64,000 nt of DNA from Chloroflexota bacterium. Its GTDB lineage: Bacteria; Chloroflexota; Dehalococcoidia; Lucifugimonadales; UBA3495. Of the stretch, positions 36,042 through 39,015 are shown in pieces (within the stretch, counting starts at the first letter, position 1; each line of letters starts with the position of its first letter). Below the pieces are notes generated by a model. The model had not been told where the DNA came from and did not search any database. It saw only the letters and a program-made list of their open reading frames with translations. The position numbers and the translations under genes are program-made. The stretch is taken from positions 1 through 64,000 of the forward strand of contig VXTR01000053.1 of assembly GCA_009837355.1 (NCBI GenBank). The letters run 5' to 3'.

Positions 36042-36872
36042 CTAATCCCCTTCCCGGATGTTCTGATACACCGCCAGCGGCGTCGCCGCCAGCAGCCCGG
36101 CGTCCACCGGCAGCACCACGCCGGACACCCACCGCGCTTCGTCGCTGGCCAGAAACAGCGCCGCGTAAGCGATGTCCCAGGCGCTGCCCTCGGTTCCCAG
36201 CGGGCCGGCCTTGCGGCGGAGATCCCGCGTCCGTTCCGGCATCATCCCGGCCACCATCGGCGTGTAGATGTGGCCCGGCGCGATAACGTTCACGCGAATG
36301 TTGTCCCGCCCCAGGTGCACCGCCATCGTTTCCGACATACCGATGACGCCGGACTTGGAAGCGGAGTAGGGAATGCTGGCCAGCCCGCTGCCGGCCCGCA
36401 CGCCGGCGATGGACGACATATTGATGATGCTGCCCCCGCCGGCGTCGATCATCCTGGGCACGGCGTACTTGGTGGTCAGCATCATGCTTTTCAGGTTCAC
36501 GTCCAGCACGTTGTCCCACACGCTTTCCTCAACGTCGGTGGGCGTGCCCGGCCCGGTGATTCCCACGTTGTTGAACAATACGTGCAGCGCGCCATAGCGC
36601 TCCACCGCGGCGTCCACGATAGCTTGGCAATCCTCGGCGGAGGTGACGTCGGCCGCTATAACTGAGCCTTCGCCGCCCTGCTCGTGGATGGCGGCCAGCG
36701 TTTCCTCGGCGGCCTGCGGGTTCCGGTCCACCAGCAGCACCTTGGCCCCTTCCCGCGCAAACAGTATCGACGCCGCCTTGCCCGTGCCCATTCCCGGCCC
36801 GCTGGACCCGGCGCCCGTGATGATGGCGACCTTGTCTTGCAATCGTGGCCGGCCGGCCGGTAGCAATGTCAT
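36042..36872 (-). CDS. Short-chain dehydrogenase/reductase (SDR) family oxidoreductase
   Basis: The 276-residue protein has the SDR dinucleotide motif TGAGSSGPGMGTGKA (residues about 20-34), NNVGITG, a catalytic Ser near SSIAGVRAG, YSASKSG (catalytic Tyr and Lys) and a C-terminal segment ASDEARWVSGVVLPVDAG. It should interconvert an alcohol and a ketone with NAD(P); the substrate is unknown. It is downstream of the thioesterase gene with a palindromic repeat between them. Confidence 0.92.
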   Translation of the reverse strand: MTLLPAGRPRLQDKVAIITGAGSSGPGMGTGKAASILFAREGAKVLLVDRNPQAAEETLAAIHEQGGEGSVIAADVTSAEDCQAIVDAAVERYGALHVLFNNVGITGPGTPTDVEESVWDNVLDVNLKSMMLTTKYAVPRMIDAGGGSIINMSSIAGVRAGSGLASIPYSASKSGVIGMSETMAVHLGRDNIRVNVIAPGHIYTPMVAGMMPERTRDLRRKAGPLGTEGSAWDIAYAALFLASDEARWVSGVVLPVDAGLLAATPLAVYQNIREGD

Positions 36873-36893
36873 CTTGAACCTCCGAAAAGTAGC

Positions 36894-36917
36894 AGGGGCG
36901 AATAACCATCCGCCCCT
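36894..36917. repeat. Palindrome AGGGGCG / CGCCCCT that reaches into the thioesterase gene end
   Basis: A stem of AGGGGCGAAT and ATCCGCCCCT (one mismatch) with a short loop lies between two leftward genes. Its outer bases provide the end of the thioesterase gene, whose TAG stop is at 36916-36918. It belongs to the same family as 28551-28574 and 54352-54379. Confidence 0.65.
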
Positions 36918-37305
36918 ACGATGCTTGCTCCACCACGGCCAGGTAGAGCTGCGCCGTGCCCAATATCGTATCGTCGCGCTGTACCTGCGCCGAAAACTCC
37001 AGCCGGTTGTACGTAACGTCCGTCAGCGTGCAGCGCGTTGTGACGCGGTCGCCAATGCCCGCCGACGCCAAGTGCCTGATGTTGAACTGGTAGCCGACTA
37101 CGGTTTGCCCCGGATAGAGCAGGGACACCACCGCGCGGTAGCAACCCTGCTCGATGAGAAAGAGCATCGCCGGCGTGCAGAACTTCGGCACGTGTGGCGC
37201 CAGGTGCTCCGAGCCGATGGTTAGCTCTACCTCGCCCGTCAGGCCGGCCCGAATGCCCGGGTTCACAGCCGGGCGAGGCGGCTCTGACCCCTCGGTGGTT
37301 GACAC
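36916..37305 (-). CDS. Hot-dog-fold thioesterase (FlK-like)
   Basis: The 129-residue protein shows the FlK-type hot-dog pattern: RAGLTGEVELTIGSEHLAPHV, TPAMLFLIEQGCYRAVVSLL (the central helix with the Thr/Glu pair) and GYQFNIRHLASAGIGDRVTT with the conserved His. FlK-like enzymes hydrolyse acyl-CoA thioesters. The substrate is unknown. The gene lies 16 bases downstream of the selenoprotein gene, on the same strand, so they may share a transcript. Confidence 0.8.
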   Translation of the reverse strand: MSTTEGSEPPRPAVNPGIRAGLTGEVELTIGSEHLAPHVPKFCTPAMLFLIEQGCYRAVVSLLYPGQTVVGYQFNIRHLASAGIGDRVTTRCTLTDVTYNRLEFSAQVQRDDTILGTAQLYLAVVEQAS

Positions 37306-37321
37306 GAAACGGCCCGCAACG

Positions 37322-37888
37322 TCAGGCAGACGCTGCGGGTACGCCGGTCAGGATGGACTCAACCTCGTCGGCCAGCTCATTGGCCCGGGCCTTCACTTCG
37401 TCATCGGTGAGGCTGGACAGCGGATGCTGCGCCACCACGTAGCGATATTCGGGCACTCCCATCATCCGGGTCATCGCCTGGGCGGTGTTCAGGAACACGT
37501 GGGTGATGATGGCTGCGGTGGGAACGCCGCGCTTTTCCATGTCGATTCCGTCGTGCACACTGCACGAACTGCACGACCCTCAATCACCCACCCCGGTGAT
37601 GAGGTAGTCAACCTCGCCCAGGATGGAGTCAATCACGTCCTGCTTGGCGGGCAGGCTGGCGTGGTGCTTGCTGAAGTACTTGACCTCGGCGAAACCGTGC
37701 CGCTCGTTGAGGATGCTGCCCAGCTCATGCAACAGCTTGTCGGCGTTGGCTTTGGAGTTCTCCATCAGCCCCAGCCGCTTGCCGGCCAGGCCGCCGGAGC
37801 GGTCGTTCATGTGAAATTCGCTCTTGGGCAGCTCCGTGCCCTTGGGGTTGACGAGCCTCAGGCGGCTCATGGATTCGGCGGTCGTCAT
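37322..37888 (-). CDS. UGSC-type selenoprotein, UGA read as selenocysteine
   Basis: Two open segments in the same frame (37583-37888 and 37322-37579) are separated by a single TGA and together give 188 residues. The text across it is TGVGD-U-GSCSSCSVHDGID, matching the U-G-S-C motif of the family annotated as UGSC family (seleno)protein, from memory; homologues carry Cys in place of Sec. Sec103 would be the redox residue, with Cys106 and Cys109 near it. The second half then reads KRGVPTAAIITHVFLNT. A stable hairpin follows the UGA. GGAGG precedes the ATG at 37888. The function is unknown; a thiol-redox role is likely. A nonsense mutation of Cys is the alternative. Confidence 0.8.
37551..37582 (-). 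promoter_or_regulatory. Selenocysteine UGA with bacterial SECIS-like hairpin
   Basis: TGA is at 37580-37582. About 12 bases after it, on the minus strand, TCGTGCA - GTG - TGCACGA forms a perfect 7-bp stem (37551-37567) with the apical loop GUG, which begins with G and lies about 20 bases after the UGA, within the known spacing range of bacterial SECIS. A competing 8-bp stem GTCGTGCA / TGCACGAC (37550-37577) is possible because TCGTGCAGT is directly repeated. Confidence 0.65.
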
Positions 37889-37986
37889 TGCTATCTAACC
37901 TCCGTCGTCGTGGTTGTAACCGTCATTGTGATGTGATGCCCCGATTGTACCGTCAAACCGGGTGATTGTGTAACCCCTGTTTCCGA

Positions 37987-39015
37987 CTAGTCGGCGCCAA
38001 TCTTGCGGGTGCGGATGCGGTAGCCGGTGGTGTCAATGATGGCGCTGTAGCGTCCGCCGGTGCCGCCGCCGTGCATAATCAGGATGTCGTCGGGGTCGTT
38101 GGCGCAGCGCATGATAACGTTCTCGTCGCCGGGGCGCTCCGGCCCCTGCTTGGAACCCAGCCGGATCAGTTCGGAGCGGGAACGTCCGCTGTTTTCAATC
38201 AGGAACTCCTGGATGTCACGGCGGCTCCAGCCGTCGCCTTGCAGGGTCAGGGCGTGCTCCGGCCCGATGACGATAACCCACTGGGCCGGGTAGCGATGAA
38301 CCAGAGTGGCGGAACGGAGGGAATCGCAGATGGAGTTCAGGATCTGGCGACCGGTGTGCCCGTAACTGTTGGGCACGCTGACGGGGTTGTAGGCCACCGC
38401 CACCGTCACCACGCTGTCCGAGGCGTCAAATCCCCTGCTCACGTGCAGCGGTTCCCAGGGCGAGGTTTCCTCGTTCTCGGCGATGCAGAAGGTGTACTTC
38501 GCCGGTGTGCCCATGGTGCCCCGGTCTAGCTGCCCGGGCCAGGCGTCAAATCCGTTCATAAAGCAGAGGCGCACGGCCCGCCCGATGCTGGCGTTGGCCC
38601 GGAAGCCGGGACCGAACAGCCCGTCCCTGCTGTTGATGCCCAGCGCGTCCCGTATCGGCCCGTTCAGCACCATCAGGATGCTTGGCGAACTGGTTGAGGA
38701 CGCGGCCATGTTGACGAAGTTGCGTTCCTCCTCCAGGGTTTTCAGCGCTGTAACCAGCACCGGGAAATACTCGGCCTGGCAGCCGGCCATCACCGCGTTG
38801 GCCGCGGCATTCTCCGACGTGATGACCCTGCTGCGCATGTCCAGGTTGAGCAGTTCCTCCTCGCCGGTGAGTCCGGCCACGGACAGCATCTCCCGTACCT
38901 TGTAGTCGGCCGGCGGAACCACCGGCAGGCCGTCGGTCCAGCCCAGGCGAAAACATTCCTCAATGGCCTCAATGGTGTCGGCGGTTTCAACGTGCCGTTC
39001 GGCGCTGCTGGTCAT
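37987..39015 (-). CDS. Conserved protein next to the selenoprotein (DGLPVVPP motif family)
   Basis: The 342-residue protein has an N-terminal segment GWTDGLPVVPPADYKVREML and a hydrophobic core with several Gly/Ser-rich stretches (FGPGFRANASIGRAVRL, IMHGGGTGGR). Cysteines occur at CQAEYFP, CFMNGF and CIAENE. I do not know its reaction. In other bacteria, from memory, the DGLPVVPP segment is linked to UGSC proteins as a second domain or a neighbouring gene. Here it is separate and lies 98 bases upstream of the selenoprotein on the same strand, so co-transcription and a functional pair are likely. Confidence 0.7.
   Translation of the reverse strand: MTSSAERHVETADTIEAIEECFRLGWTDGLPVVPPADYKVREMLSVAGLTGEEELLNLDMRSRVITSENAAANAVMAGCQAEYFPVLVTALKTLEEERNFVNMAASSTSSPSILMVLNGPIRDALGINSRDGLFGPGFRANASIGRAVRLCFMNGFDAWPGQLDRGTMGTPAKYTFCIAENEETSPWEPLHVSRGFDASDSVVTVAVAYNPVSVPNSYGHTGRQILNSICDSLRSATLVHRYPAQWVIVIGPEHALTLQGDGWSRRDIQEFLIENSGRSRSELIRLGSKQGPERPGDENVIMRCANDPDDILIMHGGGTGGRYSAIIDTTGYRIRTRKIGAD

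Follow-up and report, generated by a model that had tools for sequence, protein, structure and literature searches.

Results

A gene almost certainly read through an in-frame UGA

The window, the whole 64,000-nucleotide stretch of DNA analyzed here, comes from a draft Chloroflexota genome (3.25 Mb in 89 contigs, 96.6% complete). Inspection of its open reading frames (ORFs) placed the gene of interest on the minus strand, which the initial annotation had not given: an ATG at 37888 is followed by 102 open codons and a TGA at 37582-37580, and the same frame continues to a second TGA at 37324-37322. The junction GVGD-U-GSCSSCSVHD was found exactly as that annotation had read it, from two TGA-joined halves in one frame. 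Its expectation that ordinary gene calling would split the locus also held, since translation table 11 gives two ORFs, the one after the stop being GTG-started. The features of the locus are listed below.

37322..37888, minus strand: UGSC-family gene, almost certainly for a selenoprotein (188 aa, Sec at codon 103); PF24696 and NF041046 matched by the read-through product
37580..37582, minus strand: in-frame UGA, the putative Sec codon 103 of the U-G-S-C (U-x-x-C) motif; TGA in 81/81 related loci
37324-37322, minus strand: true stop TGA of the UGSC gene, at the end of the ORF
37899..37903, minus strand: Shine-Dalgarno sequence GGAGG, read from the sequence, 10 nt ahead of the ATG at 37888
37551..37567, minus strand: very probable SECIS hairpin UCGUGCA-GUG-UGCACGA, with compensatory changes, frozen synonymous codons and an apical GU
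37559..37576, minus strand: tandem repeat, two copies of TCGTGCAGT; the conserved hairpin includes the second copy only (37567-37559)
37987..39015, minus strand: partner protein gene (342 aa, 'WTDGLPVVPP' family), sharing 35% identity with the C-terminal half of a fused UGSC protein

On this strand, past the end of the UGSC gene, positions 36045-37305 encode an FlK/4HBT-type thioesterase and a short-chain dehydrogenase, which could possibly form an operon with the UGSC gene and its partner.

The 188-aa read-through product matched PF24696 over residues 12-181 (E = 1.2e-56, 192 bits against a cut-off of 25) and NF041046, 'UGSC family (seleno)protein', at 158 bits (cut-off 125). The U-G-S-C redox-type family proposed earlier was thus recovered over the whole length, with both profiles above their cut-offs. 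Of the profile, the 102-aa part covered positions 2-92 and the 78-aa part covered 101-171; because the halves align to successive stretches of a single Pfam/NCBIfam profile, and because the hairpin covaries across 38 divergent relatives (see below), chance is excluded. The UGSC family was described from marine metagenomes, and surveys of ocean and fresh water rank it with the most abundant selenoprotein families (PMC2398784), and NF041046 is entered in the list of a 2026 review (PMC13188914). The gene resembles the known members in its full-length profile match, U-x-x-C motif, in-frame UGA and the existence of fused versions, and is itself no different from them (PMC2398784).

The UGA codon in related genes

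The codon at the Sec site was TGA in 81/81 related loci, comprising the window gene and 80 loci from public genome records, mostly SAR202/Dehalococcoidia. Each of the nine UGSC genes in the source genome contains exactly one TGA (9/9), and TGA was present in all UGSC matches except one short fragment across the order (59 genomes) and in all except three across the phylum (301 genomes). Among 62 divergent members, which were collected by profile search independently of the UGSC motif, the residue at this site was Sec in 61 and Thr in one, and Cys was found at +3 from it in 61/62. The homologs that the initial annotation had proposed to align extend over the full length and have a Sec codon where the window gene has its UGA. 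The second Cys (C109) is replaced by Trp in 18/62 distant relatives, so that its role, if any, is not general.

The Asp codon before the UGA (37583-37585) was GAT in 60/63 relatives, whose genes elsewhere mix GAT and GAC; the base preceding the UGA seems to be under constraint. Two unusual loci were also observed. At L101:12421-12879, close to a Sec-bearing copy, a fused UGSC paralog reads Thr-Arg-Ser-Gly instead of U-G-S-C and is probably a non-redox derivative; at L131:6040-6540, a UGSC gene and its partner are broken over frames, reflecting frameshifts or assembly errors.

A conserved hairpin downstream of the UGA

A 7-bp stem (UCGUGCA/UGCACGA) closed by a GUG loop is present exactly at 37567-37551. 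It starts 12 nt past the UGA and its loop 19 nt past, in agreement with the perfect stem and GUG loop about 20 bases downstream that had been pointed out from the sequence. Single-sequence folding could not prove the hairpin, because the fold energy of the 69-nt region alone was not unusual (z = -0.58), and an initial 18-row alignment was too divergent for scanning. Across the 81 loci, positions 37566 to 37554 show no variation and the few that follow show almost none, while the codons ahead vary synonymously; these loci were gathered by a peptide pattern, and their amino-acid invariance is therefore partly selected, which synonymous codon choice should not be. In 66 less redundant sequences, the codons inside the hairpin were Val GTG in 66/66 and Ser AGT in 66/66, against identities of 0.43 and 0.23, respectively, expected from the codon use of the same genes, and the neighboring codons vary.

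In 38 divergent members, 89.5% of stem cells are paired and the stem has changed in a compensatory manner (CGUGC/GCACG, CGGCC/GGCCG, CGUGG/CCACG, CCCGC/GCGGG and CGCGC/GCGCG). The covariation score was 0.418 in this set, as compared with 0.171 for shuffled alignments (0/500) and no more than 0.112 for slid registers. The apical GU is retained in most loops of the relatives. Because synonymous codons are frozen in close relatives and compensatory changes occur in distant ones, the hairpin is very probably a real SECIS, as judged from comparative sequence data. Fused UGSC proteins with a U-STCAPA motif (L053, L054, L056, L057, L059, L060 and L061) were observed to have another hairpin register past the UGA.

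The initial annotation had further suggested that a direct repeat creates two mutually exclusive hairpins that tune UGA reading. The repeat, TCGTGCAGT, is present and consists of two Ser-Cys-Ser codon triplets in tandem, at 37576-37568 and at 37567-37559. In close orthologs, its first copy varies synonymously (TCC TGC AGC, TCT TGC AGT, AGT TGC AGC), and the alternative hairpin formed from that copy is 72.9% paired versus 71.4% in shuffled alignments, with no clear covariation above controls. Since neither conservation of the first copy nor covariation of its pairing was seen, tuning by alternative hairpins is unsupported, and the repeat is best explained as two Ser-Cys-Ser codon triplets.

These comparisons bear directly on whether the TGA is decoded. 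If it were a true stop, the locus would hold either two separate genes or a pseudogene that a nonsense mutation has interrupted. The table 11 split and the GTG-started ORF after the stop are what such a reading would predict, but the TGA is fixed in all 81 related loci with protein similarity on both sides of it, the downstream GTG sits in the SECIS loop, and the codons there are constrained for an RNA hairpin; we consider this explanation very improbable. An error of sequencing or assembly, with TGC or TGT as the actual codon, would be even harder to sustain. Selenoprotein families usually have Cys as their alternative residue, and the GOS survey recorded 21 Cys homologs of UGSC beside 255 with Sec (PMC2398784). 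However, a misread TGC, which had been named as a possible refutation, is very unlikely because TGA was found at all 81 loci from many assemblies (80 come from public records of assemblies other than this one) and in each of the nine paralogs of the genome itself; a SECIS would also be superfluous for a Cys codon.

Selenocysteine machinery of the source genome

Profile searches of the source genome detected selA (556 bits), selB (355 bits) and selD (382 bits), the last with an in-frame Sec codon of its own (HCAGUAAKL, L021:1531-1533), together with a tRNA-Sec with anticodon UCA (66.4 bits). The set of genes that the initial annotation had recommended looking for (selA, selB, selC and selD) is thus complete. 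General reassignment of TGA to a sense codon, by which the frame would likewise be read through, has a negligible probability, given that the UGSC gene itself stops at TGA about where its relatives end, that tRNA-Sec, selA, selB and selD are present, and that the conserved hairpin occurs at the internal TGA only.

In the phylum sample, selA exceeded its cut-off in 31/32 UGSC-bearing genomes versus 8/20 among the genomes listed for the same class or order that lack UGSC (Fisher p = 6e-6, uncorrected for relatedness). Two short PrdB-like genes were also noted in the source genome, at C46:55752-56174 (L190) and C34:5231-5644. The C46 gene runs on past a TGA as U-PLCTHAV and is therefore probably a further selenoprotein gene. 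Taken together, the sequence evidence leaves us nearly certain that the gene at 37322-37888 encodes a UGSC-family selenoprotein with UGA 103 recoded as selenocysteine.

A partner gene accompanies each UGSC gene of the source genome

The partner is the next gene upstream of the UGSC gene. Its protein matched nothing in Pfam or NCBIfam, even with E allowed up to 10, and a PDB sequence search gave no convincing relatives; the fused UGSC protein whose C-terminal half it resembles is encoded on contig C64 of the same genome. The source genome contains nine UGSC genes and exactly nine partner genes, paired one-to-one and adjoining or fused: the pair in the window (37322-39015) and those on contigs C89, C62, C7, C46, C38, C75, C33 and C64 (L062-L069). 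Nine UGSC copies are the most among the 59 genomes of the order that were examined, the next highest number being five. At 107/120 informative loci a partner lies within 1.3 kb on the same strand, in either gene order, and at 14 of those 107 the two share one reading frame; a nearby partner is absent at the other 13.

The GOS paper describes a conserved 'Unknown_1' domain fused to UGSC (PMC2398784). It is possibly the same as the partner, which is here mostly a separate adjoining gene. A Pfam scan of the neighbors of the UGSC paralogs found short-chain dehydrogenases, luciferase-like monooxygenases, enolase-like proteins, AMP-ligases and others, and no single pathway. These varied and often catabolic neighbors fit different substrates and name none.

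Class I fumarase was considered as an identity for the partner and found little support. The top 19 Foldseek matches of the partner model were all fumarate hydratases, and all were weak (best E = 4.2e-4, TM 0.29); a further structure comparison gave Z = 6.3 and an rmsd of 5.2. The fold hint is thus weak, and hhalign finds nothing (0.09%).

Relationship to the GrdB/PrdB selenocysteine domain

A profile of 62 UGSC domains was compared by hhalign with one built from 27 GrdB/PrdB-like Sec domains found in the phylum. With the U columns masked, the two matched at 96.1% (E = 3.3e-9, score 60.7), and U was still aligned to U. Controls scored far lower: 40 column shuffles reached no more than 18.2, the reversed profile 13.8 and nine unrelated families no more than 22.5. 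The UGSC profile scored 59.0 against GrdB alone and 41.4 against PrdB-like proteins alone. Both groups have a U-x-x-C motif after a strand, then an E-x-x-G-[IV]-P segment and, close to the end, an H-P. In contrast, the UGSC protein is less than half the length of GrdB and falls below the cut-offs of the GrdB/PrdB families (PF07355, TIGR01917), matching neither PF07355 when E up to 10 was allowed nor TIGR01917 at 0.001; a fused UGSC paralog reached 12.3 bits with the GrdB/PrdB profile, whose cut-off is 602. Nor is the neighbor of the UGSC gene recognizable as a GrdE/PrdA-type protein, as Pfam and NCBIfam searches at E up to 10 found no pyruvoyl-forming GrdE/PrdA subunit at the adjoining partner gene. 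By profile comparison, the UGSC domain is a remote homolog of the GrdB/PrdB Sec domain, a relative and not a member.

An AF2 model of the UGSC protein (pLDDT 84.7) has five alternating β/α units with Sec103 at a helix start. Structure searches with this model returned PDB matches at Z 8-10 to varied generic Rossmann-like proteins, with no solved GrdB/PrdB structure among the matches listed, and a PDB sequence search with UGSC gave no convincing relatives. The domain is accordingly predicted to be Rossmann-like.

The model and the profile homology also weigh on a different functional assignment, that of a thioredoxin-like thiol oxidoreductase acting alone in general redox defense. The U-x-x-C motif is consistent with such a protein, and the GOS paper gives a likely thioredoxin-like fold (PMC2398784). 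This assignment is nevertheless unlikely: the modeled protein would have five alternating β/α units with the Sec where the third helix begins, the profile homology is to GrdB/PrdB, and one-to-one pairing with a partner favors a dedicated enzyme.

Discussion

GrdB and PrdB are the model for the Sec-nucleophile mechanism that we propose for UGSC. The sequence evidence supports recoding of UGA 103 by SelB and tRNA-Sec through the hairpin 12 nt downstream with its apical GU. Building on the recoding signals, family membership, pairing and homology, all of which the data support, we infer complex formation, nucleophilic chemistry and substrate diversity as follows. The UGSC protein is probably the subunit that contributes the catalytic Sec to a redox enzyme of two subunits, the second being the 342-aa product of the upstream gene. 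By analogy with GrdB and PrdB, Sec103, at the helix start of the Rossmann-like domain, would be the nucleophile, in its selenolate form, toward a substrate that the partner holds, where it may attack an activated carbon or heteroatom, and Cys106 of the U-x-x-C motif would resolve the selenium adduct as a selenenylsulfide. Reductive chemistry of the GrdB kind, which rests on the same analogy, is a reasonable possibility that falls somewhat short of an even chance. The nine pairs probably differ in the small organic substrates that they act on.

The gene belongs to a known family; what makes it interesting is the pairing, repeated nine times, and the link to GrdB/PrdB. Nine paralogs in one genome, a one-to-one partner gene and the GrdB/PrdB relationship go beyond the cited papers, and none of the papers covered by the literature search mentions both SAR202 and selenoprotein. 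Nine copies, each beside an unnamed partner, suggest an undescribed two-part enzyme. Ordinary gene callers cut at the UGA, and all nine copies in the genome could therefore be lost or split. UGSC function becomes testable on a concrete two-gene unit now that it has a one-to-one partner and can be linked to GrdB/PrdB.

More tentatively still, UGSC and its partner could constitute an undescribed class of two-subunit selenoenzyme, sharing its Sec domain ancestry with GrdB/PrdB, whose copies have expanded in SAR202-type Chloroflexota for attack on a wide range of organic substrates, and could be a main reason that these bacteria keep selenocysteine. selA and selB are enriched in sponge symbionts (PMC5649159), and the UGSC pairs may bear on the retention of selA and selB by these symbionts.
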